Positions 8,289 through 39,958 of a stretch of 64,000 nt of DNA are shown here, piece by piece. The DNA comes from Phycisphaeraceae bacterium (GTDB taxonomy: Bacteria; Planctomycetota; Phycisphaerae; Phycisphaerales; Phycisphaeraceae), in the NCBI GenBank assembly GCA_028280965.1, contig JANQKT010000087.1:41282-105281 (forward strand). The letters are read 5' to 3'. The number at the start of each line of letters is the position of its first letter. Position 1 is the stretch's first letter. The notes below the pieces were generated by a model, which saw nothing but the letters and a program-made list of their open reading frames with translations, had not been told where the DNA came from and made no database searches. The position numbers and the translations under genes were made by a program.

Positions 8289-8315
8289 CAGGCCGCCTCT
8301 GTTTGTTTCGCCGGG

Positions 8316-19901: not shown

Positions 19902-21925
19902 ACGGTCACCCTTGCGATCTCTTTCCGGGAGAAGAAGAACAGGCCGATCGCGCCGACGATGCCGGTCCACATCAGGCCGATCTTCCAGAAGGCCTTGAAC
20001 AGCAGCCCGTTGCCGATGACCTGGCCGTTGGACAGCGGCTCGGTGGTGTTGAACCCGCCGAAGGACGGGACGAGCAGCATGAATGTCCCGCCGAGCACGC
20101 GCACCAGCACGCGGAAGGCCTCGTAGACCTCGCCGTTGCCCAGGTGGGAGAAGAACGTGCCGAGGGTCGAGGTGATGAGGGTCCAGGCGTCTGTGTCCGG
20201 CGCACTGACATAGGAGTTCAGCGACTCGTCGATCACGCCGCTGAATGTCGCGGCGACGAACACGACCAGCGAGACCATCGCCGCGACCGGGAAGCTCATG
20301 AGTGACCCCGCCGCGAGCCCGAGCATCGCCAGGAAGCAGAGCTTGAGCCAGACGATGGCCATCGCCCGGGCGAGGTTGGCCTCGAACGAGCCGACACGGT
20401 AGTACAGCTCGATCTGCGCGTCCTTGTAGTTGAAATCGAGGTAGTCCTGCCTGACCCCGTCACGCCGGTAGGCAGGGACCTCGATCGTGACGAGCATCGT
20501 GCCGTCCTGGCCGATCATGCTCGCGGGGATGTTGACCTCGTGCGGCGTCTCGACCGGCACCTCGCCGTTGCTGACCGGCGACGCCGGGGCGCCCGGACGA
20601 GACGGCGGGGGGTAGGGCAGGTTGTTGACCTTGAGGTAGAACTCGACGAACTGGTCGTCCGGCTCGGGGCTGGTGTCGGTAGTCAGCACCAGCTGGATCG
20701 TCTCGCGGTCGATCTGTTCCCCCGCCTTCTCGATCACCTGCGGCGGGACCTGTTCGAGCACCGCGCGCGTCAGCTCGTTGGGCCGGCCGGCGATCCAGGC
20801 CGTGACCTGGTCCGCGTCTTCCCCGCCGAGCCCGCCTTCGTCCACGAGGATCGCCCGGGCGCGCTCGATCGCGGCGTTGGACGCCGCGACCGCGTTCTCC
20901 AGGCCCTCGAAGCGGTACTGCTTGCTCGACCCGCCATCGATGGTGTAGAAGCGCGCGACCGCTTCGGCGACGATCTCCTGCCGGGCCGGCTCCGGCAACG
21001 CGCCGATCGGATCGCCTACCTCGCCGAACTTCTCCGGGTCGCGCTGCTGCTTCTCCTGGAGCATGTTGTCGAACATCGCGTCCCAGCCGATGTCCATCGG
21101 CTCGGGGACCATCGCCAGCCGGGCGGTCAGGACCTCCCGATGCACCGCACCGCGGTCGAACTCGTTGAGCGCGGGGTTGCGCGCGATCGACATCGTGAAG
21201 CCGTAGATCGCCACGCCCGCGACCGTGACCAGCACCGCGTTGAGCAGCACGACCCCCAGCCACTTGCCCAGGAGGTACTGCCACCGCGCCAGCGGCTTGG
21301 TCAGGGTCATGTGCGCCTGGCGGGAAGACAGCTCGAGGCTGACCGACCGCGCCGCGAGCAGCACCGTCATCAGCCCGAGCAGCACCGACACGATCGCGGT
21401 CGAGTACGTCAGAAACCGCTGGATCATGTAGGTGACGCGGTCCTCGCTGCTCAGAATCAGCGGCATGACAACCAGCAGCACGAGCAGGGCGACGATGAAG
21501 ATCAGCGCGATGCCCATGCGCAGCGCCTCTTCGAGCATCGTGCGCGCGACACCAAGCGCCGCATAGCCCGGGCGGAGGATCAACCGCAACAGGTTGATGC
21601 CCAGCAGGAAGCCGATGACCGCGAGGTAGAGGTAGATCGAAGTGCGCCAGCCGGGTTCCCAGCCGATCGCGAGCATCAGCAGCGTGACCAGGCCGAACCC
21701 GACCGTCGTCAGGACAAAGGTATTGACACGCTTGACCCACGGCGTCTCGCGCCATCGGTAAAGGCCGTACAGCGTCCAGGCGCTGCCGATGAACCCGCCC
21801 GCGAACGCGAGCCATCGCGCGGGTGCATCGGCCTCTTGCGCCGCCAGCAGGAAGTACAGGCCGTTCGCGGCAACCGCGATCGCCACCCACACCGCGAGCC
21901 AGGTTTTCCAGGTGAGCTTGAGCAT
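19898..21925 (-). CDS. ABC transporter permease (ABC-2 type) with large extracytoplasmic segment
   Basis: N-terminal TMs, SLELSSRQAHMTLTKPLARWQYLLGKWLGVVLLNAVLV, C-terminal TMs; overlaps the ATPase gene. Confidence 0.88.
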   Translation of the reverse strand: MLKLTWKTWLAVWVAIAVAANGLYFLLAAQEADAPARWLAFAGGFIGSAWTLYGLYRWRETPWVKRVNTFVLTTVGFGLVTLLMLAIGWEPGWRTSIYLYLAVIGFLLGINLLRLILRPGYAALGVARTMLEEALRMGIALIFIVALLVLLVVMPLILSSEDRVTYMIQRFLTYSTAIVSVLLGLMTVLLAARSVSLELSSRQAHMTLTKPLARWQYLLGKWLGVVLLNAVLVTVAGVAIYGFTMSIARNPALNEFDRGAVHREVLTARLAMVPEPMDIGWDAMFDNMLQEKQQRDPEKFGEVGDPIGALPEPARQEIVAEAVARFYTIDGGSSKQYRFEGLENAVAASNAAIERARAILVDEGGLGGEDADQVTAWIAGRPNELTRAVLEQVPPQVIEKAGEQIDRETIQLVLTTDTSPEPDDQFVEFYLKVNNLPYPPPSRPGAPASPVSNGEVPVETPHEVNIPASMIGQDGTMLVTIEVPAYRRDGVRQDYLDFNYKDAQIELYYRVGSFEANLARAMAIVWLKLCFLAMLGLAAGSLMSFPVAAMVSLVVFVAATFSGVIDESLNSYVSAPDTDAWTLITSTLGTFFSHLGNGEVYEAFRVLVRVLGGTFMLLVPSFGGFNTTEPLSNGQVIGNGLLFKAFWKIGLMWTGIVGAIGLFFFSRKEIARVTV

Positions 21926-23244
21926 CAGCCGTTGAGCAGGTCGTCGATCACGCCCTTGTCGGTTTGCGGTTTCGCGTCGCGCGGTTTCGTCTCGCCCGCG
22001 CTCGGGTCGGCGGGCTTGGGCGACCGGGGCTCGGCCGGCTTGTCGCCGGCCAGCTCGGCGAGGACGCTGTCTGCCTCGCTCGGCGCAGCGGGCGCGGGCT
22101 GGGCCCCGGGCTGATCCGAGCCCGCGCCGCGCTCTGGCGCGGCTTGGGCAGTCGTTGTTGATGCACCGGCTGCCGGTTCGGGTGCCCTCGGGGCTTCACC
22201 GCTGACCAGCGACTCGATCAGCACCTCGCGTTCCTGCGTCTGCTTACGCTCGGCGAAGGCGGCATCGTCCTCGTCCTCGCCCTGCAAGAACGCCGCGACG
22301 TCCCGGCCGGACCGGGCGCCGTACGTGTGCAGGCCCTGCTGCTTCGCTTCCTCGACCATCTCGAGGAACACTTGTTCAAGCGTCCGTCGGGGGTGGTCGA
22401 GCGCGACATCCGTGACGCCCAGGCGTTCGAGCGCCGCCACGATCTGTTCGTCGCTGACCTGGTCCAGCGCGCCGGTCGTAATGGTGGTTTTTTCCTGGAC
22501 CTCGAGCAGCCGGTCGAGGTTGCCTTCCCGCCTGACTTTCCCGCCGTACATCATGGACACGCGGTCGCACACGTCCTGCACATCCGCCAGGAGGTGCGAG
22601 CACAGCAGGATCGTCTTGCCCCGGTCGCGCAGCTGGGTGATGACCTTTTTGACATCATTGGTCGCGATCGGATCCATGCCCGAGGTCGGCTCGTCGAGGA
22701 TCAAGAGCTCAGGGTCGTTGATCAGCGCCTGGGCGAGGCCGACCTTCCGCATCATGCCCTTGGAGAACTCGCCGACCGGCCGGTTCGCCGCGTGCTCGAG
22801 ACCGACCATCTCCAGCAGCATCTCGATCCGCTTCTTCCGCGTCGTGCGGTCCAGGTGGAACAGCTTGCCGTAGTAATCCAGCGTCTCGGTCGGGGAGAGG
22901 AACCGGTACAGGTATGTCTCTTCCGGCAGGTAGCCGATCCGCTTCTTGGTCGCGACGTCCCGCGGCAGGCTGCCGAACACCGCCAGCTTGCCCGAGGTTG
23001 GGTGCAGGAGCCCCAGGATCATCTTGATCGTCGTGGACTTGCCCGATCCGTTGGGGCCCAGGAGCCCGAACACCTCGCCGCGGAGGATCTCAAAGTCGAT
23101 CGCATCGACCGCGCGGACCTTGTCGCGGAGCCAGAAATCCTTGAAGACCTTGGTCAGCCCGAGCGCCTTGACGACGACGTCTTCGGCCCCCGGAAGGTTC
23201 GGGGGCGCTGCCGGGGGCGGGGCGGTTTCCGGGGGCTCGGCCAT
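21925..23244 (-). CDS. ABC transporter ATP-binding protein with Ala/Pro-rich C-terminal tail
   Basis: GPNGSGKSTTIKMILGLLHPTSG, FSKGMMRKVGLAQALINDPELLILDEPTSGMDP; ~90-residue low-complexity tail ending KGVIDDLLNG. Confidence 0.93.
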   Translation of the reverse strand: MAEPPETAPPPAAPPNLPGAEDVVVKALGLTKVFKDFWLRDKVRAVDAIDFEILRGEVFGLLGPNGSGKSTTIKMILGLLHPTSGKLAVFGSLPRDVATKKRIGYLPEETYLYRFLSPTETLDYYGKLFHLDRTTRKKRIEMLLEMVGLEHAANRPVGEFSKGMMRKVGLAQALINDPELLILDEPTSGMDPIATNDVKKVITQLRDRGKTILLCSHLLADVQDVCDRVSMMYGGKVRREGNLDRLLEVQEKTTITTGALDQVSDEQIVAALERLGVTDVALDHPRRTLEQVFLEMVEEAKQQGLHTYGARSGRDVAAFLQGEDEDDAAFAERKQTQEREVLIESLVSGEAPRAPEPAAGASTTTAQAAPERGAGSDQPGAQPAPAAPSEADSVLAELAGDKPAEPRSPKPADPSAGETKPRDAKPQTDKGVIDDLLNG

Positions 23245-23301
23245 CACCCGATTCTATACGTTCGGGGGGCGGCCGGGTTGGCCTGAATCAGAGCGGGTGC
23301 C

Positions 23302-23754
23302 TCACCAAGTCCTATGCTCGGCCGAGTCGTTGGGCGCGATCTCGCCGGTGTTCTCGTCGTAGAACCACGCCGAGCTGCCCACCGCGCCGTCGCCGAGCGG
23401 GACGGTGTCGGTGAACGGGTTCTTGGGCATGAAGGGCATGTATGGCCCGAGCGGGTAGCCGGCGGTGCCGATCGGCGCGGTCGCGCCGGCCTCGTTGCTG
23501 GACAGCGTCATCTGGTCGATGAAGTTGGTCAGCGTCGGGTAGTTGCCGTTGTGCTGGTTCTTGTACAACTCGAGCTGAGCCCGCATCCGGAACAGGTCCT
23601 GCTGCAGGGCGCTCTCCTTGGTGTCCTGCGAGGCGCTGGAGAACTGCGGGACGACGATCGCGGCGAGGATCCCCAGGATCACCACCACGACCAGGATCTC
23701 GACCAGCGTGAAGCCCCGGCGGGCGGTCTGACGGGTGTGTAGCGGCAGGTTCAT
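23302..23754 (-). CDS. Type II secretion pseudopilin (GspG-like)
   Basis: RRGFTLVEILVVVVILGILAAIVVPQFSSAS prepilin motif; YKNQHNGNYPTL; PKNPFTD. Confidence 0.9.
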   Translation of the reverse strand: MNLPLHTRQTARRGFTLVEILVVVVILGILAAIVVPQFSSASQDTKESALQQDLFRMRAQLELYKNQHNGNYPTLTNFIDQMTLSSNEAGATAPIGTAGYPLGPYMPFMPKNPFTDTVPLGDGAVGSSAWFYDENTGEIAPNDSAEHRTW

Positions 23755-24176
23755 AGCGGTTTTCCTTGTCGTCGCCGGGCCCCTCGGCGCATACGCCCGC
23801 CCGGTATAGGTCCACCGCAACTATCGAATCCCCCCGCGCGGCCGTGAAGCGCGGGGGCCCGATTCCCTGTGCAGCGGGGTAGCCGGCGCCGGCTGTAACG
23901 GCTGGGCAGGGCCCCAGAAGCCCCCAGACTGCAGGACCGGCCCGGGTTTGGGCGGAAACGAACGTTGGGTAGCCGGGGTGGAGGCTCGGCGACGCCCCGG
24001 AACGTGTCGGCATGGACAGGATCAACACAACCGGGTCCGGGGGCTCGCAAGCTCGGCCCCGGCCACCCGACAGCCGGCTTTTCGCCCCTCCGGCTTGCAT
24101 CCCCGGCCGGGCTTTGTCACAATACCCGGCTCGAAACCCCGATCGACCCCGAACCCGCCGACGAAAGGCAGACCCC

Positions 24177-24380
24177 ATGGCCATCCGGATCAAGGCCCGC
24201 AACGGTGAATCCGCCGAGCAGATGCTCCGCCGCTTCAAGAAGCTGTGCGAGAAAGAAGGCCTGACCAAAGAGATCAAGAAGCGCGCCTACTACGAGAAGC
24301 CCAGCGAGCGGAAGCAGCGGGCCCTGCGCAAGCAGGTCAAGCGCACCGAGATGGGCGGCCGCGGCCCGCGGCGCAAGTAA
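24177..24380 (+). CDS. rpsU: 30S ribosomal protein S21
   Basis: MAIRIKARNGESAEQMLRRFKKLCEKEGLTKEIKKRAYYEKPSERKQRALRKQVKR. Confidence 0.93.
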   Translation: MAIRIKARNGESAEQMLRRFKKLCEKEGLTKEIKKRAYYEKPSERKQRALRKQVKRTEMGGRGPRRK

Positions 24381-24410
24381 GCGCCTCTCTCCATCCAGGA
24401 CCACTGCGAA

Positions 24411-24438
24411 GCCCACGCCCTAAGAGCGTGGGTTTTTT
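24411..24438 (+). terminator. Rho-independent terminator after rpsU
   Basis: cccacgc cctaaga gcgtggg tttttt. Confidence 0.88.
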
Positions 24439-24724
24439 ACGACGCGGCCTCCTCGATCGCCAGCGCCAGGTCCACATCCTTTTGCGTCACCTTGTTCCCC
24501 GCGTCGTGCGTGCTCAGCGAGATGGTCACGCACGAATAAACGTTCCACAGCTCGGGGTGGTGGTTTGCCGCCTCCGCCTCGAGCCCGATGCGCACGATCA
24601 GCGCGAGCGCCTCGCGGAAGTCGGCCAGCTTGAACGCCTTGGTCAGCTTATCGTCTTCAAACGACCAGCCGGGCAGGGAGGCGAGTGCGGATTCGATCTG
24701 TTCGCTTGAGAGCGGGCTTGCCAT
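24437..24724 (-). CDS. phhB: Pterin-4a-carbinolamine dehydratase
   Basis: LPGWSFEDDKLTKAFKLADFREALALIVRIGLEAEAANHHPELWNVYSCVTISLSTHDAGNKVTQKDVDLALAIE. Confidence 0.94.
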   Translation of the reverse strand: MASPLSSEQIESALASLPGWSFEDDKLTKAFKLADFREALALIVRIGLEAEAANHHPELWNVYSCVTISLSTHDAGNKVTQKDVDLALAIEEAAS

Positions 24725-24886
24725 CGGTATCTCCTGATCGGGCTTGACGGGGCGACGGGGACAGTCCCTCTGAGTAGAGGGCCTGTCCGCTTTGTGTGCG
24801 TTTAATGATAGGAGAACTGATTAAAAACAGGCGCAGCGCTCGCGCGCCGCGCCTGCGGTTGGGGTTTCACGGGATCTCAGCACCGG

Positions 24887-25159
24887 TCAGACCAGCACCG
24901 CCCGGTCGTCGGGCACGTAGGCGGCGGTGTCGCCCGCCTCCGCGCTCCGATCGACCGTGCCCAGCTCGACGGCCGGGGCGTAGAGCAGCTTGTGGACCGC
25001 ATCGATGTGGTCCTGGCCGTAACGCCGGTGCCCGCCGGGGGTCCGGTGTGCCGGTGGGATGAGCCCTGCGCGCTCCCAATTGCGCAGCGACTCGGCCGAC
25101 ACGTTGAACCGGCGCGTGAGCACGCCGATCGAGAAGGTCCGCGTTTCGAGTTCGGCCAT
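24887..25159 (-). CDS. MerR-family HTH regulator
   Basis: FSIGVLTRRFNVSAESLRNWERAGLIPPAHRTPGGHRRYGQDHIDAVHKL. Confidence 0.9.
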   Translation of the reverse strand: MAELETRTFSIGVLTRRFNVSAESLRNWERAGLIPPAHRTPGGHRRYGQDHIDAVHKLLYAPAVELGTVDRSAEAGDTAAYVPDDRAVLV

Positions 25160-25296
25160 GACAGGCCTCCTTACGCTGCGTCAAGAGCAGGGCAGGTTAA
25201 AACCGCAACCAAGACCGGCCGGGTCTGTTGTTGATTGTTTGTTCCGTTGTTTGTTTCGCGGGTGACGCGGAGCGTCCCGTGCGGGCGCCAACAGCC

Positions 25297-26436
25297 TCAC
25301 ACCCCCAGCACCCACGGCGACGCGAGCACCACCGCCGCCGACCCGAGCGCGACGATCACCAGCGCCCCCGCGAGCACGATCGCCAGCTCGACCAGCTGCG
25401 TCTGCACGATCAGCCACCGGCCGCAGCCGAGCTTGTGCAGCGTGCGACGTTCGGCTTCGCGCAGCCTCATGGATAGCGCGATCACCAGGCCGATCAGCAT
25501 CACCACCGCGAGGCCGACCAGCGCGGTGTTCGCGTCGAACAGCCGCTTGATCCGCAGCACCAGGCCCATCAGCTCATCCATCACCTCGGCCGGGCGCAGC
25601 GCCTGATACATCGGCGAGGCGTTGTAGCGCGCGGTGATCAGCGTACGGTCCTTGTCTGTTCCAGGAAGCACGATCACCGCGGAGCAGGGCAGGTCGGCTT
25701 CGTCGCCGTGGAAGTGGAAGGTGTCCACGTTGTCGGGCGTGATCCGGATCGCGGTGACGGCCGCGGCGTGCGCCGCTTCGGACTGGTGCGCCTCGGGGTC
25801 GTGCCCGTGTCCGTGGCCGGCGATGATCCAGGCCGTCTTCATACCGACGAAGACCGCCTCGTCGTCCGCGTTGTTTGCCGGGTTCAGCACGCCGACGACG
25901 TCGAGTTCTAACGGCATCGTATGGGCGAGGTTGTACAGGTTCTCGCGGTCAACGGTGAGTGTGTCGCCCACGCCGATGTCGAGTCGTTGCGCGACACCGT
26001 GCCCGAGCACGGCCTGGCCCATGAGGTCCGGCGTGCCGCCTCGCTTGAGCGACAGGCCGCGGAAGGCGAGGTAGCCATCCAGGTCCGTGCCGACGACCGG
26101 TGCGCCTTTCGTTGTGTGCCGCGCGTGCAGCGGGATCGCATACGCGTCGAACGCGTGGTCTGTTTCGAGCTTGTCCACCAGCCCAAACGGCACATCCTCG
26201 GTCCGCCCGTCGCGGAACAAGAGCGCCTGCAAAAGCAGGTCGTATCGGTTGCCTTTCGCGCCGATGATCACCGGTGTCGCGTCGGCTCGGGCGCCCATCC
26301 GCGCGTCGTAGGACCGGATCACCAGCGTCACCGCGACCGGCAGCAGCAGCAGCAGCCCGAGCGCCGCGATAAGGATCAGTGTCCGCCCGCGGTGCGCGCT
26401 GGTGTACTTCCATGCCAGGTAGCCCGCCGATCTCAT
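25297..26436 (-). CDS. FtsX-like ABC transporter permease
   Basis: YLAWKYTSAHRGRTLILIAALGLLLLLPVAV; C-terminal TMs; overlaps the ATPase gene by 4 nt. Confidence 0.85.
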   Translation of the reverse strand: MRSAGYLAWKYTSAHRGRTLILIAALGLLLLLPVAVTLVIRSYDARMGARADATPVIIGAKGNRYDLLLQALLFRDGRTEDVPFGLVDKLETDHAFDAYAIPLHARHTTKGAPVVGTDLDGYLAFRGLSLKRGGTPDLMGQAVLGHGVAQRLDIGVGDTLTVDRENLYNLAHTMPLELDVVGVLNPANNADDEAVFVGMKTAWIIAGHGHGHDPEAHQSEAAHAAAVTAIRITPDNVDTFHFHGDEADLPCSAVIVLPGTDKDRTLITARYNASPMYQALRPAEVMDELMGLVLRIKRLFDANTALVGLAVVMLIGLVIALSMRLREAERRTLHKLGCGRWLIVQTQLVELAIVLAGALVIVALGSAAVVLASPWVLGV

Positions 26437-27089
26437 GACACGACCCCCTTCTCGACGTGGACGACACGGTCGAAGCGCGGCAGCAGCGACTTGTCGTGCG
26501 TCAGCATGACCAGCGTCGCGCCGTGTTCTTCAACCAACTGCATGAGCAGGTCGAGTGCTGATGTAGCAGTGTCGTTGTCCAGCGACGCCGTCGGTTCGTC
26601 CGCAAGCACCAGTGTGGGCTTGGTGATTAACGCCCGGCAGATACCGACGCGCTGACGCTCGCCCTGCGACAGGCCCGACACTACGCGCCCGGCGGCTTCA
26701 CTTAAGCCAACACGTTCGAGCAATGCGTCCGCACGCTCTCGGGTTTTTCGATCAAGCCGCAGCGATCGGTTCAGACGGCAGGGCAGCAGCACGTTGTCCC
26801 GTGCCGAGAGGTAATCGACCAGCTCGATGCCCTGGAACACCAGGCCCATCGTCGAAAGCCTGAGGCGCCGGCGGGCCTTGTCGTTCATCGCCGACACCGT
26901 TTGGCCATCGATCGCGACTTTGCCCCGCGCCGGCACGAGGATGCCCGCGATGAGGTGCAGCAGCGTCGTCTTGCCGCTGCCGCTGGGCCCGATGACCGCG
27001 GCTTTCTCGCCCTTCGCGATCGACAGCGCGGCGGTCAGCTCGAAGCCGCCGGTGTCGTAGGCAAACGCGATGTCGCTGAGCTCGATCAT
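26433..27089 (-). CDS. ABC transporter ATP-binding protein (LolD/MacB type)
   Basis: MIELSDIAFAYD, GPSGSGKTTLLHLIAG, LSQGERQRVGICRALITKPTLVLADEPTASLDND. Confidence 0.93.
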   Translation of the reverse strand: MIELSDIAFAYDTGGFELTAALSIAKGEKAAVIGPSGSGKTTLLHLIAGILVPARGKVAIDGQTVSAMNDKARRRLRLSTMGLVFQGIELVDYLSARDNVLLPCRLNRSLRLDRKTRERADALLERVGLSEAAGRVVSGLSQGERQRVGICRALITKPTLVLADEPTASLDNDTATSALDLLMQLVEEHGATLVMLTHDKSLLPRFDRVVHVEKGVVS

Positions 27090-28390
27090 GAATCGTTCAT
27101 CACGTCCTCGGCGGTCTGATCCCCGTCGTCGACCCGGTGTTGCTGGAGGATGTGGCTCTCGACGATCCGCCAGCCATCGCCGCGCGGCGCGACGGTATAG
27201 ATCGCCTCGAACGCGTTGGTCCGGGCGTGCGTGTGGCCGAAGTGCGTGACCACGCCGTCGACCTGCCACGAGGCTTTGACAAGAAACGAACCTACCTCCT
27301 CGTCGGGCGGGGTTGTGGCGTTCGACTCAAAGTTACCCATCAACTCCATCGACTGCATCTCAACCCGCACGACCTTCGATACCGCGCCGTTTTCTTCCAG
27401 CACGATTAGCGACCGGTACACGTCGTTATAAATCGTCTCGAGCATCGGGCCATCGACGCTCTGCGCGAGGGCATCGTACACCGCGCCCTCGTCGGTGTAG
27501 TCGAACGCCCGGTAGATGTTGCGGTGCAGCGACTCGAAGATCGCCAGGGCCTCCGCGTCGCTCGGCGGAGTGTGCGAAGGCGTGTGCTCGATCCGGATGC
27601 TGCCGACGGGCAGCGTGACCGCGCCGAGCAAAGCCCCGGCCGTGAGCGCGGCCCACCGGCCCCGCGGTTGCCGCTGCCACAACACGGCCGCCACGCACAG
27701 GCCGATCAGCGTGATCACGATCGACAACACGGGGACGCGCAGCCATCGGCGCTCAATCGTCACGGACGCGTCGAAGCCCGCGGGCAGGCCCGAGGCCGCC
27801 TCGCTGTGCCAGGTGTAGCTCGGCTCGGCGGGGGTCAGGAGCACGATCTGCTGCCGCCCTTCGCCCTCGACCAGCGCGACGACCTGCAGGCCCTCGCCTT
27901 CGTGGATCGGCTCACCGTCCGCGTCGTACTGGTTGGCGAAGACCGTCCAGTCGATCGACACCCGACGGGGCTCGCCCTTTGTCTCGTAGCGGGCGACGAA
28001 CTTGAGCGTGCCCTGCTCGAGCACCTGCGCCTCGGGGAACCGCCGGGCTGGCTGGCGGGAGTTGCTCATCTTCACAACCGGCGCGAGGACGGTCGGAGGG
28101 ACGGTGGTGCCATCAATCCTCACCGGGCAACGCTCCGCGAACACCGGCGCGATCAACCGCGCCAGATCCTCCGGCTCCATCCGGTCCATCTCGACCGGCG
28201 ACATCCCATCAAACACCGCGAGCTTCGCATCCTTTGCAGGGATGCTGACGATCAGCTCGACCGCCTGGTTGTCGATGCCGGCCTGGAACGTGACCTGCGG
28301 GAACTCGTCGGCGAGGTGCGCGTGGGTCGGCGGGGCGTGCAGCAGCACGAGACCAATCAGCACGAACAGCCATCCGGGCCGGAATCGCAT
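27086..28390 (-). CDS. Membrane-anchored secreted hypothetical protein
   Basis: Signal peptide MRFRPGWLFVLIGLVLLHAPPTHA; TM VPVLSIVITLIGLCVAAVLW; overlaps the ATPase gene, operon-like. Confidence 0.78.
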   Translation of the reverse strand: MRFRPGWLFVLIGLVLLHAPPTHAHLADEFPQVTFQAGIDNQAVELIVSIPAKDAKLAVFDGMSPVEMDRMEPEDLARLIAPVFAERCPVRIDGTTVPPTVLAPVVKMSNSRQPARRFPEAQVLEQGTLKFVARYETKGEPRRVSIDWTVFANQYDADGEPIHEGEGLQVVALVEGEGRQQIVLLTPAEPSYTWHSEAASGLPAGFDASVTIERRWLRVPVLSIVITLIGLCVAAVLWQRQPRGRWAALTAGALLGAVTLPVGSIRIEHTPSHTPPSDAEALAIFESLHRNIYRAFDYTDEGAVYDALAQSVDGPMLETIYNDVYRSLIVLEENGAVSKVVRVEMQSMELMGNFESNATTPPDEEVGSFLVKASWQVDGVVTHFGHTHARTNAFEAIYTVAPRGDGWRIVESHILQQHRVDDGDQTAEDVMNDS

Positions 28391-28948: not shown

Positions 28949-29033
28949 TTTGGAACCACAGATACACACCGATGCACATCGGTCAATCCAGACAATTCCT
29001 ATCTGTGTTCATCCGTGTGCGTCTATGGTTTCA
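28949..29033. repeat. Inverted repeat, family D (ACCACAGA...CACACNGAT)
   Basis: ttggaaccacagatacacaccgatg ... catccgtgtgcgtctatggtttca; overlaps the stop codon of the next gene. Related: 33088-33175, 43901-43984, 46914-47014. Confidence 0.85.
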
Positions 29034-30122
29034 CGCCTTCCCAAACCGGTAGTGCGACACGCCCCATTCGCTCCCGCCCGCGTAGCCCCACAGCTCGGCG
29101 CAGGCCATGAAGAAGATCCGCCAGCGTTGCAGCCAGACCTTTGCGCTGGCTCGGCCGTAGGTCTGTTCGAACAGCGGCAGGATCAGCGAACGCGCCTGGT
29201 CGGTGTTGCTCAGCCAGGCCTCCGCGGTCTTCTGGTAGTGCGTGCCGTCCTGCCGCCAGTCCTGTTCACAGGCCAGGTGCTTGTCGAAGCGGGGCAAGTA
29301 AGTGTGGGCCGGCATGATCCCGCCGGTGAAGAAGTGCCGGCCCATCCAGTTGCTCTGGCCGGCTTCCTCGAAGAGGTACGTGAACCGCCGGTGGCTGAAG
29401 ACGTGTACGAACAGCCGGCCGTCGTCCTTGAGCCAGCCCGCGACGCGGCGCATCAGCTCGCGGTGGTTGGCCATGTGCTCGAACATCTCGACGCTGACGA
29501 CGCGGTCGAAGACGCGGTCGGTTTCGAAAGTGTTGATGTCGGAGGTGACGACGCTGACGTTGCCAAGCCCCAGTTCGCCCGCCCGGCCGAGGATATACGC
29601 GCGCTGGGAGGCCGAGTTGGAGACCGCGGTGATCCGCGCCGCCGGGTGGTGCTCGGCCATCCACAGCGTCAGCGAGCCCCAGCCGCAGCCGAGCTCGAGG
29701 ATATCCATCCCATCCGCGAGTTGGGCACGCTCGCAGACGAGCGCGAGCGCCGCGTCCTCCGCCTGATTGAGCGAACGCACACCATCCGCCCACGTGCAGC
29801 CGGAGTACTTCAGCCGGTGGCCGAGGCAGTGCTTGTAAAACGCGGCGGGGACCTCGTAGTGCTGGCGGTTCGCGTCCGTGGTCTTCACCGCGATCGGCCC
29901 GGCGGAGAGTTTCTCGCGCAGCGCGGCGGTGCGCTGTTCGACCGCGTCGTCACCGCCCGCGCCTTCCTGCTCTAGGCGCTCGGTCAGCAGCCGCCGAATG
30001 CCCCGGCGGATCAGCGCGTCCGGAACCCAGCCCCGCTCGGCCAGGCCCATCAGCCCGCCCTCACGGCCGGTGTCGCGCGGCCGTTGGTCGGCCCGCGCCA
30101 TGTCTGTTGATGCGCTGGTCAT
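29031..30122 (-). CDS. Cyclopropane-fatty-acyl-phospholipid synthase-like SAM methyltransferase
   Basis: HYEVPAAFYKHCLGHRLKYSGCTW, DILELGCGWGSLTLWMAEHHPAARITAVSNSASQRAYI, VVSVEMFEHMANHRELMRRVAGWL. Confidence 0.92.
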   Translation of the reverse strand: MTSASTDMARADQRPRDTGREGGLMGLAERGWVPDALIRRGIRRLLTERLEQEGAGGDDAVEQRTAALREKLSAGPIAVKTTDANRQHYEVPAAFYKHCLGHRLKYSGCTWADGVRSLNQAEDAALALVCERAQLADGMDILELGCGWGSLTLWMAEHHPAARITAVSNSASQRAYILGRAGELGLGNVSVVTSDINTFETDRVFDRVVSVEMFEHMANHRELMRRVAGWLKDDGRLFVHVFSHRRFTYLFEEAGQSNWMGRHFFTGGIMPAHTYLPRFDKHLACEQDWRQDGTHYQKTAEAWLSNTDQARSLILPLFEQTYGRASAKVWLQRWRIFFMACAELWGYAGGSEWGVSHYRFGKA

Positions 30123-30916
30123 GCCCGCTCACCCCGCTTCGGCAGCCACGGGAAGAACGCGCTGGTTTCGCGTTGGTATTGCCTGTATGCCTCGCCCTTG
30201 CTCTGCACCGCGCGCATCTCGGTGTAGGGGATGCCGGTCACGAATACGAGGAACAGCCCCATGACCAAAGGCCCGAGCAGTGCGGCGTATCCGATCGACG
30301 TGGCAAACGTCGCCCCGATCGCGAGGTAGGCGAACCAGTGCAGCCACTCGAAGAAGTAGTTGGGGTGGCGTGAGTATCGCCAGAGGCCTTGCTTGCAGAC
30401 CTGGCCGGTATTGGCTGGGTCACGCTTGAAATCGGCGAGTTGTTTGTCAGCGAGGGCTTCGCCCCCGATGGCGACAAGCCAGATCGCGATGCCCACTGGC
30501 AAGCGCCAGCCGACCGGCCCATCGAACGACATCGCCGCGACCATGGGCATCAGAAAGAGCACGACGAAGATTGCCTGTATCTGGAAGAAAACAAAGAACG
30601 CCAGCGGGGCCTTCTCGCCGTAATGCCGACGCATGTGCGCGTACCGGCCGTCCTCTTCCTTGCCGTGGACACGCTTAAAGAGATACCACGCTAAGCGCAG
30701 TGCCCACACCGCGCCAAGGATCGCGACCCAGACACGCCGCTGGAACACGCCGTCGAGCATCACCGCCGCGAGGATCACACCCAGGCCGATGAAAAACGCC
30801 CAGGCGACATCGACATGGCTCGCGTTGCCGATGCGGTGGCAGAACCACCACACACCAACAAACGCCACCGCCGCGATGGCCCATGCCCACACCAGCCATA
30901 GCCAGGGCTCGGTCAT
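30119..30916 (-). CDS. DUF1295 family membrane protein (steroid 5-alpha-reductase-like)
   Basis: GLWRYSRHPNYFFEWLHWFAYLAIG; multiple TMs; ATGA overlaps with both neighbours. Confidence 0.9.
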   Translation of the reverse strand: MTEPWLWLVWAWAIAAVAFVGVWWFCHRIGNASHVDVAWAFFIGLGVILAAVMLDGVFQRRVWVAILGAVWALRLAWYLFKRVHGKEEDGRYAHMRRHYGEKAPLAFFVFFQIQAIFVVLFLMPMVAAMSFDGPVGWRLPVGIAIWLVAIGGEALADKQLADFKRDPANTGQVCKQGLWRYSRHPNYFFEWLHWFAYLAIGATFATSIGYAALLGPLVMGLFLVFVTGIPYTEMRAVQSKGEAYRQYQRETSAFFPWLPKRGERA

Positions 30917-32205
30917 GACACCACCTGAATCGGCTCGACGACAGTCGGCGGGTCGGTGCAGCCCGGCCGGCGGACCTCGAACTGCGCCAGCCCGATGTTG
31001 CCCTCGATGAACCCGCCCTCGCAGTAGGCGAGATAAAACTCCCACAGCCGGACCAGCTCGCGCGGGTAGCCGCGTTCGAGCACGTGCTCGCGGGCGTGAT
31101 GCAGGTTGTCCGCCCAGCGCCGCAGCGTCGTGGCGTAGTGTGGGCCGAGCTCTTCAAAGTGCGTCATCGAGAGGTCGCTGGACGCGGTCATCGCGTTGCG
31201 CAGCACGCCGATGGCCGGGATGCACGAGCCCGGGAAGATGTACTTCTTGATGAAGTCCACGCACTTGCGTGCTGACTCGTAACGGGCATCCGGGATCGTG
31301 ATCGTCTGGATGATGCCCCGGCCGGTGGGCTTGAGCAAGGCGGAGCACTTGTCAAAAAACGCGCCGTAATACTGATGGCCGACCGCCTCGATCATCTCGA
31401 CGCTGACCAGCTTGTCGTACTGCCCTTCCAATTCGCGGTAGTCACGCAGCAGGAGCCTGACGCGATCGCCCAGCCCGCGCTCGGCGATGAGCTTCGCGGT
31501 GTAGTCGTGCTGCTGCCTGCTCAGCGTTGTCGTCGTCACCCGGCAGCCGGTGCGCTCGGCGGCCCGCAGCGCGAGTGCGCCCCAGCCTGTTCCGATCTCA
31601 AGCAGGTGCTGGTCCGGCGTCAGGCCGAGCTTATCGATCAGCCGGTCGAGCTTGGCGTGTTGTGCGTCGATCAGCGGCGTGTCCGGTGAGTCAAACACGG
31701 CGCAGGAATAGCAGAGCGTTGGGTCGAGCAGCAGCTCGAAGAAGTCGTTGCCCAGGTCGTAGTGCGCCGCGATGTTGCCGCGGCTACCAGTGCGCGTATT
31801 GCGTCTGAGTGCGTGGCCGAGCCGGAGCAGCGCCCCGCCGACCCGGACCGACAGGCGGTCCATCTCGTCGGAGAGCGCGAGGTTGCGGGCGAAGACGCGG
31901 ACCAGCGCGGTCAGGTCGTCGCAATCCCACAGGCCGTGGACGTAGCCCTCCGCGGCGCGCAGGTGCCCGCCGAGCACGGCGTCGCGGTAAAAACGCGGGT
32001 GGCGGACGGTGATCGTGCAGCGCGGGCTCCTGGCCGTGTGCGCGACGCCAAAGGTTCGCCGCCCGCCATTGTCGAGCAGCGTGACCTGCGCGTCGTCGAT
32101 GCGTGCGAGCTGGCCGAGCAGCAGCGACCGGCAGGCGCGGTCGGCCAGGCCCGGCCGATCGGACGCGGGCAGCGAGCGGGATGCGGGGATGATGGACGTA
32201 GACAT
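30913..32205 (-). CDS. Cyclopropane-fatty-acyl-phospholipid synthase
   Basis: NIAAHYDLGNDFFELLLDPTLCYSCAVF, HLLEIGTGWGALALRAAERTGCRVTTTTLSRQQHDY, VSVEMIEAVGHQYYGAFFDKCSALLKPTG, FIKKYIFPGSCIPAI. Confidence 0.95.
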   Translation of the reverse strand: MSTSIIPASRSLPASDRPGLADRACRSLLLGQLARIDDAQVTLLDNGGRRTFGVAHTARSPRCTITVRHPRFYRDAVLGGHLRAAEGYVHGLWDCDDLTALVRVFARNLALSDEMDRLSVRVGGALLRLGHALRRNTRTGSRGNIAAHYDLGNDFFELLLDPTLCYSCAVFDSPDTPLIDAQHAKLDRLIDKLGLTPDQHLLEIGTGWGALALRAAERTGCRVTTTTLSRQQHDYTAKLIAERGLGDRVRLLLRDYRELEGQYDKLVSVEMIEAVGHQYYGAFFDKCSALLKPTGRGIIQTITIPDARYESARKCVDFIKKYIFPGSCIPAIGVLRNAMTASSDLSMTHFEELGPHYATTLRRWADNLHHAREHVLERGYPRELVRLWEFYLAYCEGGFIEGNIGLAQFEVRRPGCTDPPTVVEPIQVVS

Positions 32206-32268
32206 GGTGGGCAGGCAGCAGGATAGCCCCACCCCGTCGGCGGGTCACATCATTCATTTCGTTCGCGC

Positions 32269-33069
32269 TCACGCCTCGGATTCAGCCGCCCGCCATTTCG
32301 GGTGCGGCACGAACGGCACGCGTTTGAGCCAGAGCCGCAGCGCGTGCCAGTAGATCGCCGCGATGACCTTGACCGTGACCAACGGGTACTTGAGCAGCAT
32401 GAGGTTCAGCCGAGTCGTCGTGATCGGCTGCCGTGTCATCGACAGCGAAGCGTCGAAGACGCGTCGGCCGGTCTCGGGGTCGAGGTTCTTCATGCTGACG
32501 ACGAGCCGCTCACCCGGCGTGCTAAACCGCCAGTCGTAGTCGTGGTCCATGGGCATGAAGGGGGAGACGTGGAAGTTTTTTTTGAACTGGAAACGCAGGG
32601 CGCTTTCGGGGATCTGTTTTGATCCGGGTGCTGAAGCGCCCTCCGCCGGGAGGACGTAGGCGTGGCGTTCGCCCCAGGGGGTGTTGTGGATCTCGACGAC
32701 GATCGTATCGAGGGCCTGGCCGTCCTCGGCGTAGCAGTAGAAGAACGTCGCGGGGTTCATCACGTAGCCGAAGTACCGCAGGTGTGCGTGCATGACGACG
32801 CGCCCGCCCGGGCGTCGGCCGGTCTGTTCTTCGACCTTGTCGAGCACGGCATCCTTGATTGATTTGCGGGGGTCACCGAAGTGGTCCTTGCGCAGCAGGC
32901 AGGCGAGGTTGAAGCGGTTGACCGACCAGAGCAGCTTGCCGAAACCGTTGAAGACGGTGTCCAGCTCATCGAGGTCCAGCGCGAGCATGAACATGCGGTA
33001 CGACAGCGCGTGGGGTTTGGGCTCGAACCGCCGGTGCCGGACAACGCCCTGATAGATGGCTGAGTTCAC
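32269..33069 (-). CDS. DUF1365 family protein
   Basis: [79 protein letters not shown]. Confidence 0.94.
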
Positions 33070-33181: not shown

Positions 33182-34429
33182 TCACAAAGACAGCCCGAAT
33201 GGCTCGACCGCGCGGAGCGCGCTGGCGACGCCGTCTTCGTGGAATCCGTACCGCCAGTACGCGCCGCAGAAGCTGGTGCGGTTCTGGTGGTTGATGTTGT
33301 CGAACAGGTCGTGAGCGGCCTTACGCTCGGGCATGAACACCGGGTGCTCGTAAGGCACGCGGGCGATGACTTGTTCGGGATCGATCGTGCCCTCGTCGTT
33401 GAGCGTTACGCAGAGCGTCCTGGGTGCATCAAGCCCCTGGAGGATGTTCATGTTGTAGGTCAGGACAACGGGGCGATCATCTTCTTCCGGCACGCGGTAG
33501 TTCCACGCCGCCCAGCAGGCCCTGCGCTTGGGCAGCACGCGCTCGTCGGTGTGCAGGATAGCGAGGTTCGGCTGGTAGGGGATCGACGAGAGTGCTTCGT
33601 ATTCGTTGCCGGTCGTGCCGCGCCCGAGGATGCGCAGCGCCTGGTCGCTGTGGCAGCCGAGGATGATGTGATCGAAACGCTGGTTGGCTTCGCGTGGCGT
33701 GTCGAGCTCGATGTGGTCATCAAACCGGCGGGCCGCGGTGACCGGCTCGCTCAGGCGGATGCGGTCGGCGAACGGGCGGGTCAGCGCGGCCATGTAGGTG
33801 CGCGACCCGCCGACGACCGTGCGCCACTGCGGGCGGTCCCAGACGTTGAGCATGCCGTGGTTGCGGAAGAACTCCGCCATGAACCGCATCGGGAACTGTG
33901 CCACCTTCCGGGGGTCGGCGGACCAGATCGACGCGGCGATGGGGACGAGGTATTTGTCGTAAAAGTACTCGCCCAGGCCGTGGTGCCCGACGAACTCGCG
34001 CATCGTGGTCCGGTCGTCACCCGACTCCGCGAAGGCCCTGGCGAGCCTGTTGAACCGCAGGATGTCACGGAGCATGCCGAGGAACCTGGGGCTGGCGAGG
34101 TTGCGCTTCTGAGCGAACAGGCCGGTGATCGACCCGCCGTTGTATTCGAGACCGGTCTGATCACAGGCGACGGAGAAGCTCATGGTCGATGCGCGCGATT
34201 CGACGCCGAGCCGGTCGAGCAGCCTGATGAAGTTCGGGTAAGTCCAGTCGTTGAAGACGATGAAGCCGGTATCGACGGGATAGGATTGGCCACCGATCGT
34301 GACGTCGAGCGTGTTGGTGTGTCCGCCGACGTACGAGGCCTTGTCGAAGACGGTCAGCTCGTGCCGGCCGTGCAGCAGAAACGCCGCGGTCATCGCGCTG
34401 ATGCCGGTGCCGACGATCGCGATGCGCAT
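33182..34429 (-). CDS. FAD-dependent oxidoreductase (amine oxidase-like)
   Basis: RIAIVGTGISAMTAAFLLHGRHELTVFDKASYVGGHTNTLDV dinucleotide-binding motif; PVDTGFIVFNDWTYPNFIRLLDRLGV. Confidence 0.93.
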   Translation of the reverse strand: MRIAIVGTGISAMTAAFLLHGRHELTVFDKASYVGGHTNTLDVTIGGQSYPVDTGFIVFNDWTYPNFIRLLDRLGVESRASTMSFSVACDQTGLEYNGGSITGLFAQKRNLASPRFLGMLRDILRFNRLARAFAESGDDRTTMREFVGHHGLGEYFYDKYLVPIAASIWSADPRKVAQFPMRFMAEFFRNHGMLNVWDRPQWRTVVGGSRTYMAALTRPFADRIRLSEPVTAARRFDDHIELDTPREANQRFDHIILGCHSDQALRILGRGTTGNEYEALSSIPYQPNLAILHTDERVLPKRRACWAAWNYRVPEEDDRPVVLTYNMNILQGLDAPRTLCVTLNDEGTIDPEQVIARVPYEHPVFMPERKAAHDLFDNINHQNRTSFCGAYWRYGFHEDGVASALRAVEPFGLSL

Positions 34430-34552: not shown

Positions 34553-35749
34553 TCATGCGGTCCCGCCGGCTTTGCGTGCGATGCTCTCGCTGGCCTTCTT
34601 GCCGAGTTCATCGAGCTTGTCGGTCGCGTCGTGGGCCTTCTTGCTGAGGACATCGGTCGCATCGTGCGCCTTTTTGCTCAGGGCATCGCTCGCGTCGTGG
34701 GCTTTCTGGCCGAGCGTGCTCGCGATGCTGGACTTCTTTTTCGGCGCCGCGATGTGGTCGGGGCGGGCGTCGGCCGCGGCCTCGGCCATGGAGAGAGCGC
34801 CTTCTTTAACCCGGTTGGCCACAAGCTTCTTCTCGGGCACGCCGCGGAGGTCCCAGATCAGGCCGGTCCAGCTCATCGCCTTGAGGATGTAGTAGGTGAT
34901 GTCGATCTCGTACCAGTAGAAGCCCTGCCTTGTGGAGGACTGGTAGTGGTGGTGGTTGTTGTGCCAGCCCTCGCCGAGGGTGAGCAGGGCGAGCCAGAAG
35001 TTGTTGCGCGAGTCGTCGCCGGTCTTGTAGCGCTGCTTGCCGTACTTGTGGCTCAGCGAGTTGATCGTGTAGGTGCCGTGGTAGGTCAGGACGGTGGAGA
35101 CGAAGAAGCCCCAGACGAAGACCTGCCAGCCGGAGGTGTTCAGGCCGATCGCCTGGAGCAGCACGCCAAGGCCGAAGAGGGCCAGCGCAAAGCCCGCGTA
35201 GACGATCGTGTCGAAGCGGTCGATGAAGCGCAGCTCGGGGTACTTGGCCAGGTCATGCACGGACTTCTGGTTGGTGCCGAAGGCGGCCTCGGTGGTGAAC
35301 CAGAACATGTGCGACCAGAGCATGCCGTGCTGCTTGGGCGAGTGCAGGTCTGGGTGCTCGTCGCTGTGGCGGTGGTGGTGGCGGTGGTGGGCGGCCCACC
35401 ACAGCGGCCCGCGCTGGATCGCGGTCAGGCCCCAGACGGCCATGACGAACTGGAAGGCCCGGCTGGTCTTGAAGGTCTTGTGCGAGAAGTAGCGGTGGTA
35501 GAAGCCGGTGATCGCGAACATGCGGGCGAAGTAGAGCCCGACACAGACCGCCACCGCCGTCCACGAGATGCCGACCAGCAGGACCAGCAGGCAGGCGGCG
35601 TGCATCGCGAAGTAGGGCATGTTCCGCAGCCACTCGACCTTCTTCGGGCCGGGCAGCTCGATCTGCTTGACCGACGCCGCGCCGTCGAAAAACTGACAGA
35701 CGGCCCGGCCGATGGCCCGGAGCGAAGCGCGCAACGAATTCAAAAGCAT
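34553..35749 (-). CDS. Fatty acid desaturase (acyl-CoA delta-9 type) with repetitive Lys/Ala-rich C-terminal tail
   Basis: Three His boxes: HRYFSH, HHRHHH, EGWHNNHH; C-terminal KKAHDATDVLSKKAHDATDKLDELGKKA. Confidence 0.95.
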   Translation of the reverse strand: MLLNSLRASLRAIGRAVCQFFDGAASVKQIELPGPKKVEWLRNMPYFAMHAACLLVLLVGISWTAVAVCVGLYFARMFAITGFYHRYFSHKTFKTSRAFQFVMAVWGLTAIQRGPLWWAAHHRHHHRHSDEHPDLHSPKQHGMLWSHMFWFTTEAAFGTNQKSVHDLAKYPELRFIDRFDTIVYAGFALALFGLGVLLQAIGLNTSGWQVFVWGFFVSTVLTYHGTYTINSLSHKYGKQRYKTGDDSRNNFWLALLTLGEGWHNNHHHYQSSTRQGFYWYEIDITYYILKAMSWTGLIWDLRGVPEKKLVANRVKEGALSMAEAAADARPDHIAAPKKKSSIASTLGQKAHDASDALSKKAHDATDVLSKKAHDATDKLDELGKKASESIARKAGGTA

Positions 35750-35887: not shown

Positions 35888-36787
35888 CTACGCGACGCCG
35901 TTGTTGTGGTTGTTCTTCGCGAGGTGCGCCGCCAGGAGCCCGCGTGAGAAAATCGTGAGCTCGTTCATGGAGTTCGCGGCGTAGAGGTTGGGGTGCGGGG
36001 GGCGGGGCATCTGGTCGGCGGCGTGCCGGCCGCCGACCATCAGCGGGGCGGGCAGGTGCGCCAGCCGCTGGGCGAGCGTGGAGAGCGGGGCGGTGCGCGA
36101 GGCCGATGGCTCGGCGGTCATCGAGCACCAGACCAGCGACGCGCCCTCGCGCTCGGCGACGGCGACGAACTGGTCCCACGGCGTGTTCGCCCCCAGGTTC
36201 AGCTCCCGCCAGCCCTGCTCGGCCAGCACCAGCGAGATGCACAGCGACGGGATCAGGTGGATATCGCCCGGCGGGGCCCCGCCGACCGCCAGCGGCCGGT
36301 CCTCAGGCGGGTAGGGGACCAGCGTGTGCAGGTAGCCCAGCGTGCGGATGCAGATGTCCGTCGCCCGGTGCTCGATCCCCACGCCGTCGGGGTTGTTGTG
36401 CCACAGCTCGCCGATGCGGGCCATCGCGGTGCGCAGCGGCCCGTCGATGAGCTCCGCCAGGCCGTGGCCGGCCAGGTACAGCCCGGTCACCGCGGCGATG
36501 AACTGCTTGTCCTTGCCGCGGGTTAGCAGGTCGTGGAACTGCTCGCCCAGCTGGCCCGTATCCGACCGGCCGGTGATGTCGTCTGACGCGGTCAGCCCGA
36601 GCACCGATGGGTCGCTGACGGTGTAGCCCCGCTGGCGGACAAACCGGACCGCCTCGGGCAGCTCGATCCGCCGGTGGCCCCCGGCCGTACGCGACACCGA
36701 GATCTGCCCGTCATCGATCCACCGTTTCAGCGACGACTCGCTGACTCCGATCGCCTGGCCGAGTTGTTTGGGGGAGAGATACTTCAA
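35888..36787 (-). CDS. Excisionase/MerR-type HTH regulator with cobalamin-binding domain (CarH/LitR-like)
   Basis: HTH YLSPKQLGQAIGVSESSLKRWIDDGQISVSRTAGGHRRI; W-x9-EH motif WHNNPDGVGIEH; B12-type GDIHLIP...LGANTPWDQFVAVA...MVGGRHA. TTG 36787 fits a TATAAT at 36812-36817; the track extends to 36940. Confidence 0.8.
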   Translation of the reverse strand: MKYLSPKQLGQAIGVSESSLKRWIDDGQISVSRTAGGHRRIELPEAVRFVRQRGYTVSDPSVLGLTASDDITGRSDTGQLGEQFHDLLTRGKDKQFIAAVTGLYLAGHGLAELIDGPLRTAMARIGELWHNNPDGVGIEHRATDICIRTLGYLHTLVPYPPEDRPLAVGGAPPGDIHLIPSLCISLVLAEQGWRELNLGANTPWDQFVAVAEREGASLVWCSMTAEPSASRTAPLSTLAQRLAHLPAPLMVGGRHAADQMPRPPHPNLYAANSMNELTIFSRGLLAAHLAKNNHNNGVA

Positions 36788-36949
36788 GGGCTCAGTCCAT
36801 GGACCCCGCCTATTATATCGGCCAGATCGTTCATATGAAAGTAAGGATAGGTCCGAATCAGGGCCGTATACAACATTATGGCCCATAAAAACGTTTAAAG
36901 TGTCTCCGGCCAGGGGCCTATCGGATGCTCCGATGGCCACGCACCGCCT

Positions 36950-37465
36950 GTGAACCCCACTATGCCACCCATTAACCCACCTACTGTCGAGCGCCAGAGC
37001 AAGCTCTGGCGGCTAACCATGAGCCAGTGGCTCGCCCGGCCGCCGGCCGAGCTGTTTACGTTCTTTGGCGACGCGCAGAATCTCGGCGAGATCACCCCCG
37101 ACACACTGCACTTCAAGATCCTCACCCCCACGCCGATCGAGATGCGGCCGGGCGCTTTGATCGACTACAGGCTCAGGGTCCGCGGCGTGCCGATCCGCTG
37201 GACGACGGAGATCACCGCGTGGGACCCACCGCACTCGTTCCGCGACACCCAGCTCCGCGGCCCGTACAGGCGGTGGGTCCACACCCACACCTTCACCGAA
37301 GAGGACGGCGGGACCCGCTGCGACGACGTCGTCGAGTACGCCCCGCCCGGCGGGCCGCTCGCGCCCTTGATCAACCGGCTCGTGGTGCAACGCGATGTCG
37401 AGCGGATCTTCGCCTACCGGGCGGAGGTGCTGGCACAACGGTTCGGGTCCGAGCACGAAGCGTAA
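36950..37465 (+). CDS. SRPBCC family protein
   Basis: WLARPPAELFTFFGDAQNLGEITPDTLHFKILTPTPIEMRPGALIDYRLRVRGVPIRWTTEITAWDPPHSFRDTQLRGPYRRWVHTHTF. Confidence 0.9.
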   Translation: MNPTMPPINPPTVERQSKLWRLTMSQWLARPPAELFTFFGDAQNLGEITPDTLHFKILTPTPIEMRPGALIDYRLRVRGVPIRWTTEITAWDPPHSFRDTQLRGPYRRWVHTHTFTEEDGGTRCDDVVEYAPPGGPLAPLINRLVVQRDVERIFAYRAEVLAQRFGSEHEA

Positions 37466-37563
37466 GCGCGTATGCGCGAATTCTTGCGACACGTGGCACG
37501 CGCTAACCATTCGTGCACAGACAAACCATCATCCGGCAGCAGCCGTCGTCAAGAGCGCGAAAC

Positions 37564-37983
37564 ATGACCCTCCTGTTCATCCACGCCGCCGCGACGTTCT
37601 ACATGACGGGGCTGATCTGGTTCGTGCAGCTGGTGCATTACCCGTTGATGGCCGGGGTCGGCGCCGAGCATTACGCCGAATACCAACACCAGCACGAGCG
37701 ACGGACCGGCTGGGCGGTCGGCCCGGCGATGCTGATCGAACTTATCACCGCGGCGTGGCTGGTGCTCGACACGCCCGCAGGCGTTGCACCCTGGCTGGCC
37801 TGGCTCGGGCTGGGGCTGGTCGCCCTGCTCTGGCTGAGCACTGCGGTGCTGCAGATACCCTGCCACAAACAACTCGGTAACGGCTTCGATCCATCGTCAC
37901 ACCGCCGACTGGTCGCAACCAACTGGCTGCGCACCGCGTTATGGTCGGGGCGTGGCGTGATCGCGTTTGTCATGCTGGGATAG
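37564..37983 (+). CDS. Four-TM integral membrane protein
   Basis: MTLLFIHAAATFYMTGLIWFVQLVHYPLMAGVG...; hydrophobicity pattern. Confidence 0.75.
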   Translation: MTLLFIHAAATFYMTGLIWFVQLVHYPLMAGVGAEHYAEYQHQHERRTGWAVGPAMLIELITAAWLVLDTPAGVAPWLAWLGLGLVALLWLSTAVLQIPCHKQLGNGFDPSSHRRLVATNWLRTALWSGRGVIAFVMLG

Positions 37984-39589: not shown

Positions 39590-39958
39590 TTATGGCTTCG
39601 GCATCTTCGTGTGGGCTTCTAAACGCCAACGGAATTGATTCGAGTCCTCATATTCACCTCGGGGAAGAATCGTCGTGGTGGACTTCGTTTGGGCCTCCAA
39701 TCGCCAACGAAACTGATTGGAGTCTTCGTACTCCCCGCGAGGCAGAACGCTTACAGAGGATTGGGCTTGGGCCTCCAGTCGCCAACGGAAATGGTTTGAG
39801 TCCTCGTTCTTTCCGCGCGGCAAGATCGAAGATTGGAGCCGCACCAAGTTCGCGTATGCACACGCCTCGGTGAGCCCGCCATCGGGCGTCGTCGTCTTAC
39901 ATCCCGAAACAATCGCTATACAGCAGATGATCGCGATCCCTGGAAAGCAACGCATCAT
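39590..39958 (-). CDS. Small lipoprotein with three 26-aa tandem repeats
   Basis: Lipobox CIAIVSGC; repeats LPRGKNEDSNHFRWRLEAQAQ / LPRGEYEDSNQFRWRLEAQTK / LPRGEYEDSNQFRWRLEAHTK. Confidence 0.7.
   Translation of the reverse strand: MMRCFPGIAIICCIAIVSGCKTTTPDGGLTEACAYANLVRLQSSILPRGKNEDSNHFRWRLEAQAQSSVSVLPRGEYEDSNQFRWRLEAQTKSTTTILPRGEYEDSNQFRWRLEAHTKMPKP

Follow-up and report, generated by a model that had tools for sequence, protein, structure and literature searches.

Judged by sequence, the closest solved relative of the regulator described here is CtMerR of Chloracidobacterium thermophilum (8JBS/8JBT), rather than CarH proper. Both combine a SESS-KRW excisionase-like HTH with a CBD, both show all four elements of the light signature and both lack a Gly after the axial His loop, CtMerR having an Ala there; CtMerR is light-responsive and loses the adenosyl group in the light (PMC11796333), and the accessible text of its description reports neither its operator nor its targets. 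For the group with BldC-type HTH and CBD that the regulator shares with CtMerR, no operator or regulon was found described in the open-access literature, which is weak evidence because such a search misses most subscription papers. In CarH of Thermus thermophilus (TtCarH; 5C8D-F, 8C31), His132 is the switch ligand (PMC10442372), and the published CarH motif is D/ExHx2G/P-x41-SxT/V-x22-27-GG (PMC9304148). The photocobilins SasPcob and AbDPcob (8J2W-Y) also have a CBD with the Trp, the Glu-His pair and the axial His, but carry a biliverdin-binding globin-like domain and no HTH; in the SasPcob crystal AdoCbl is bound base-off/His-on (PMC10979010). BldC (6AMA/6AMK), a protein of 68 aa without a sensor domain, has a related HTH and binds 9-bp direct repeats head-to-tail, its own repeat being AATTXXXX(C) (PMC5859096). 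Finally, the class II LitR proteins PplR1 and PmlR2 lack an intact B12-binding domain, have a short LOV partner and use a TGTACA-N12-TGTACA site (PMC9758184).

The window analysed here, a 64-kb stretch of DNA of a Phycisphaeraceae bacterium, holds a regulator gene and neighbouring genes whose coordinates are collected in Table 1. The original prediction had placed an open reading frame at 35888-36940 on the minus strand and had seen in it an excisionase-like HTH and the W-x9-EH triad of CarH/LitR photoreceptors. Position and strand were confirmed, a MerR/excisionase HTH was found, and the triad is present (W, 36403-36401; EH, 36373-36368). Translation most probably begins at TTG 36787-36785 and not at the listed GTG at 36940, because the alignment with two congeners turns conserved exactly there and because promoter and operator fall within the longer frame; the predicted protein is therefore 299 aa long, and 51 codons at the start of the listed frame would be promoter region. 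Pfam matches were MerR, HTH_17, B12-binding_2 and B12-binding, and the order of domains is HTH, four-helix cap and Rossmann B12 domain. A PDB search with the window protein returned CtMerR first (8JBS, 4.7e-25) and TtCarH next, and one with the family profile again had CtMerR as best match (9.9e-49). The AlphaFold2 model reached a mean pLDDT of 93.2 and a pTM of 0.90, and Foldseek placed TtCarH and CtMerR on top, the CtMerR CBD with a TM of 0.82 (target length) and 2.5 Å. The four-helix cap and Rossmann arrangement, whose lack had been named as grounds for abandoning the photoreceptor reading, are thus predicted. Since Pfam domains, PDB matches and a motif kept in more than 100 homologues agree, the CarH-like signature is not a product of chance, and the fold (pLDDT 93, TtCarH and CtMerR best) supports a CarH/LitR-like light-sensing regulator, for which we infer AdoCbl binding and a light response.

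Table 1. Features of the regulator locus, in coordinates of the window.
Feature	Position	Strand	Basis
Regulator CDS, 299 aa, start TTG 36787-36785	35888..36787	-	Domains, predicted fold, congener conservation
MerR/excisionase/BldC-like HTH (SPKQLGQAIGVSESSLKRWIDDGQISVSRTAGGHRR)	36668..36772	-	Pfam; BldC structures 6ama, 6amk; HTH_BldC, excise
GELW-x9-EH adenosyl-pocket motif (GxxW + W-x9-EH)	36368..36412	-	Compared with CtMerR, TtCarH
B12 motif D-x-H-x2-P-x41-SMT-x27-GG	36029..36265	-	Published consensus
GxxxP element (GANTP) of published light signature	36179..36193	-	Motif comparison
Predicted operator, two 9-bp direct repeats TATCGGCCA GATCGTTCA	36816..36833	+	Matrix score 18.7, best in 64-kb window
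Sigma-70-like promoter TTCATA-16-TATAAT of regulator gene	36812..36839	-	1 found, 0.1 expected in region
Weaker second operator-like site, in gap before CFA/UfaM-like gene	32248..32265	+	Matrix score 14.0
Divergent SRPBCC (polyketide cyclase-like) gene	36950..37465	+	Pfam; recurrent neighbour at other loci
UPF0093/HemJ-like membrane protein	37513..37983	+	Pfam; locus comparison
Fatty acid desaturase (DesA type), next gene after regulator	34553..35749	-	Domain search
FAD/amine-oxidase family protein, UfaD candidate	33182..34429	-	Pfam
DUF1365 protein, UfaO-like	32269..33069	-	Pfam
Cyclopropane-fatty-acid synthase (CFA)/UfaM-like SAM methyltransferase	30913..32232	-	Domain search
DUF1295 (steroid-dehydrogenase-like) membrane protein	30119..31045	-	Pfam
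Second CFA/UfaM-like SAM methyltransferase	29031..30122	-	Sequence analysis

CtMerR shares 26% identity with the window protein in the fold match and has Arg, not His, after the Trp. With TtCarH the window protein has in common the fold, W-x9-EH, the His after the Trp, the axial His and the D/ExHx2G/P motif, but the RxWERRY recognition helix of CarH is absent from it and SESSLKRWIDDG is found; the CarH operator is made of 11-bp repeats and that of the family of 9-bp repeats; CarH controls a carotenoid operon whereas the window regulator adjoins a lipid operon; and the score against the CarH equivalog NF052513 (NCBIfam) was 46.5 bits versus a cut-off of 400. The regulator would work like CarH, yet by HTH, operator and curated cut-off it is not CarH proper. 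The HTH_BldC model scored 28.1 bits (model cut-off, 77).

With regard to the cobalamin pocket, the reading of DxHxxP as a non-canonical motif turned out to be wrong, as the published CarH motif permits G or P (PMC9304148), and DIHLIP-x41-SMT-x27-GG of the window protein fits it exactly (axial His codon, 36257-36259; Pro codon, 36248-36250). The SignatureFinder signature of light-responsive CBDs (GxxW, EH, GxxH, GxxxP) is also complete, as GELW, EH, GDIH and GANTP. Of 144 aligned sequences, which take in CtMerR and TtCarH as two references, 109 have Pro and 5 have Gly at the G/P site of the motif, and SasPcob reads GEWHALP (ExHxxP). We therefore rejected the Gly-to-Pro change as a functional oddity, Pro being in the published motif, in SasPcob and the family norm, and the altered cobalamin binding proposed from it is unsupported. 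The Trp is followed by His, like His132 of TtCarH, in the window protein and in only 22 of the 144 sequences overall. The original prediction thus held for a photoreceptor-type regulator and failed for a binding change by Pro, and it had missed the non-CarH HTH and operator as well as the axial residue of the family. By these alignments, the truly unusual residue of the family is the axial ligand, kept as His in the window protein.

Homologues came from 61 genomes of the order, 397 of the class and additional named genomes, and the family spans at least seven phyla (Planctomycetota, Myxococcota, Acidobacteriota, Verrucomicrobiota, Rhodothermota, Gemmatimonadota and Binatota). Of 119 non-redundant relatives, 100 have Tyr at the axial position, 10, including the window protein, have His, and 9 have another residue. 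In the Tyr forms the Glu, the NLG Gly and the GxxxP Pro are each conserved in 100%, GG in 99% and the Trp in 97%; at the second position of EH, 88% have His and the remainder Arg, and a Pro directly precedes the Tyr (D-P-Y) in 85 of the 100. For a Tyr-form member the same fold was predicted, and PF02310 is present in 33 of 40 relatives besides the window protein. In the tree the His rows are nested at several places among Tyr forms, several changes being needed; a single clade of His rows was rejected with a p-AU of 0.026, a modest result because the tree was a quick one and the group had been named after the data were seen. Parsimony would have the His of the window protein regained from Tyr. 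Coupling of the axial His with the His after the Trp, or with loss of the preceding Pro, was without significance, the 3 independent pairs being too small a number, and a plasmid outgroup search gave only four weak matches. Mmp10 was considered as a precedent for a Tyr lower ligand and rejected: its Rossmann domain holds B12 without a protein ligand, with a Leu below the cobalt, and its Tyr binds an Fe-S cluster, so that it is a precedent for His-off and not for Tyr-on. Our tentative view, held at somewhat less than even confidence, is that the window protein belongs, as a form with regained His, to the cross-phylum AdoCbl photoreceptor-repressors that normally have Tyr (GDPYxLPSL), would bind cobalamin base-off/His-off or Tyr-on, would still respond to light and would sit in BldC-like head-to-tail fashion on 9-bp repeats.

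Several relatives had features of their own. One sub-branch (L082-L090, L165, L168, L170) has W-x9-ER, with Arg replacing the His of EH, together with an axial Tyr. In a Myxococcales MAG (L124), a single contig encodes two Tyr-type paralogues (4252-5124 and 7974-8846) separated by about 3 kb. A member titled Klebsiella pneumoniae (L169, CAMBZJ010000024.1) groups with Binatota and delta-proteobacterial sequences, and its bin is probably mislabelled. Same-class B12-binding proteins with GxMWHxxExxxxxEH and GDxH but other output domains (L024-L028) are further photoreceptor candidates.

The loss of the axial His in most family members could also mean a repressor that does not depend on B12, as in the case of Myxococcus CarA and class II LitR, and that takes its light input from a partner short LOV or BLUF protein. 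Such relatives are known (class II LitR with short LOV, PMC9758184; CarA, PMC9304148), and congeners G003 and G004 carry BLUF proteins. However, neither a BLUF protein nor a match to the LOV core was found in the genome of the window, the latter by an exact pattern that could miss divergent LOVs, and of 52 regulator-bearing genomes 1 had the LOV pattern and 7 had BLUF; this disfavours a borrowed photoreceptor. Moreover, almost every member retains the adenosyl-pocket residues, whereas CarA lost the Trp, and the window protein retains both that Trp and PF02310, unlike CarA and class II LitR, respectively. We consider this alternative unlikely. As to chromophore supply, the genome of the window encodes two further B12-binding proteins as well as a PduO adenosyltransferase, which makes AdoCbl; the presence of PduO is uninformative about AdoCbl use, since 31 of 32 genomes without the regulator also have it. 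CobO-type adenosyltransferases were found in 0 of 52 genomes.

Upstream regions of 101 family members were strongly enriched in CGTTCA (81, against 15 expected), with 45 same-strand pairs spaced by 9 bp. The strict form CGTYCA-N3-CGTYCA occurred in 40 of the 101 and the eight other gaps between N0 and N8 in none. Tandem 9-bp repeats, AAWCGTYCA, are the predicted family operator. The CarH repeat nnnnTnnACAn was found in none of the 101 regions nor in the window, and the class II LitR site in none of the 101. A matrix of 18 bp, built with the window and its congeners left out, found 87 of 98 upstream regions versus 2 of 98 shuffled ones; cross-validation between sample groups gave 47/53 and 38/48, versus 0 shuffled in each case, and over 1.01 Mb of loci 79 sites appeared, nearly all beside a regulator, versus 1 in shuffled DNA. 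His forms (8/10) and Tyr forms (76/83) have this operator in common. The best site of the window, with a chance expectation of 0.017 per 64 kb, falls in the spacer of the regulator promoter, and congeners L031 and L032 keep it in the same place in better copies. Congener L031 also has a site, scoring 12.0, in the same gap as the weaker site of the window. Because BldC, whose HTH is related, assembles head-to-tail on 9-bp repeats, the comparison suggests the same geometry for the regulator. On these sequence comparisons, the regulator family is widespread and has its own predicted DNA target of 9-base repeats; in the open-access literature it is undescribed.

The strict pattern gave 25 sites in 21 of 48 regulator-bearing genomes and none in 26 genomes without the regulator (74 genomes; Fisher p 2e-5), and the reversed pattern, used as control, gave 0. 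The twelve distal sites inspected lay upstream of genes for a sigma-70 family protein (4), fasciclin (3), FolE (1), SOUL (1) and a CrtI-family phytoene desaturase (1), two being without a clear target; near regulators, a site was present at FolE in 13 of 13 cases and at the sigma factor in 5 of 6. Photolyase and FolE are each neighbours of the regulator at 13 of 61 loci. We propose that FolE, fasciclin, SOUL, the sigma factor, the photolyase neighbourhoods and CrtI make up a light/photo-oxidative regulon, which is similar to the class II LitR light regulon of Pseudomonas (PhrB, UfaM, FolE and an SDR; PMC9758184). In planctomycetes, a sigma-70 family protein with PIDFxDDxxF at its N terminus is repeatedly encoded next to the operator or regulator (L177, L178, L180, L185, L044:9830-10867) and is a candidate dedicated light-response sigma factor. 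These genes bear on whether the regulator might bind AdoCbl and report its level or redox state instead of light: signature residues show binding and not the physiological signal, but the target and neighbour genes (photolyase, FolE, CrtI, SOUL, fasciclin) relate to light/photo-oxidation, and AdoCbl is photolabile in this pocket of TtCarH, CtMerR and SasPcob, which makes such a role improbable. Genes for SOUL heme-binding and HemJ-like proteins recur in the neighbourhood too. Tyr is a common heme ligand and the SCHIC domain of AppA binds heme instead of cobalamin, and SignatureFinder noted AppA-like CBDs among relatives, so that members, above all the Tyr forms, might bind heme or another porphyrin and sense photosensitising porphyrins. 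Nevertheless, the adenosyl-contacting Trp and Glu, needless for heme, are kept at 97-100% in the Tyr forms, and the window protein has the His and the full corrinoid motif; we regard porphyrin sensing as very improbable.

Within the window, the genes following the regulator form a predicted lipid operon shared with congener L031, with gaps of 112-138 bp between its first genes, and point to a pathway for furan or otherwise modified fatty acids. We take UfaD to have the fold of the FAD/amine-oxidase family protein of the window. The Ufa pathway of Rhodobacter is under sigmaE control. In that furan fatty acid pathway (UfaM/UfaD/UfaO) genes for a DUF1365 protein (UfaO), a methyltransferase and an FAD oxidoreductase (UfaD, RSP1091) likewise stand together, but under ChrR control, whereas the window genes adjoin a B12-type regulator and their product is predicted (PMC7380195). 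The regulator likely controls the UfaD/UfaO/UfaM-like operon; a single clean operator is present in the genome of the window, and as the matrix scan of the 64-kb window found none directly before the desaturase gene, this control would act by promoter read-through and the weak internal site. Elsewhere in the window, a small lipoprotein-like ORF (39590-39958) contains three near-identical repeats (LPRGxYEDSNxFRWRLEAxxxS), and ABC transporter ATPases, an ABC-2 permease and a MacB-like protein are clustered at 19898-27269.

Altogether, it is quite probable that the locus encodes a light-controlled repressor with AdoCbl as chromophore, regulating itself and probably the lipid operon, within a cross-phylum family. 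The domains, fold, ligand residues, operator, target genes and the co-occurrence of operator and regulator come from sequence, and cobalamin binding, light response, repression and co-transcription of the lipid genes from inference. In the dark, AdoCbl would lie between the four-helix cap, whose Trp would stack on the adenosyl group with Glu and His holding it, and the Rossmann domain, with His as lower ligand, and the BldC-like HTHs of an oligomer would bind head-to-tail to the two repeats inside the promoter spacer. The bound oligomer would shut off the regulator gene, probably, by co-transcription, the downstream desaturase-UfaD-UfaO-UfaM-like operon and possibly the divergent SRPBCC and HemJ-like genes. 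Light would break the Co-C bond, the oligomer would fall apart and the genes would be expressed, protecting membranes from photo-oxidation.

The 9-bp operator offers a defined DNA target for the class, predicts a regulon that extends over at least seven phyla and provides a small DNA element from which gene switches driven by green light could be built. Because B12 photoreceptors are sought by their axial His (GxxH), the Tyr class would be missed. If the window protein did regain its His within a Tyr-bearing family, this family would let the part played by the axial ligand in B12 photochemistry be followed in a natural before-and-after series. The paired natural His and Tyr variants make the need for His-on ligation testable and, should AdoCbl binding persist in the Tyr forms, the His-on ligation of the textbooks would be unnecessary for B12 light sensing.
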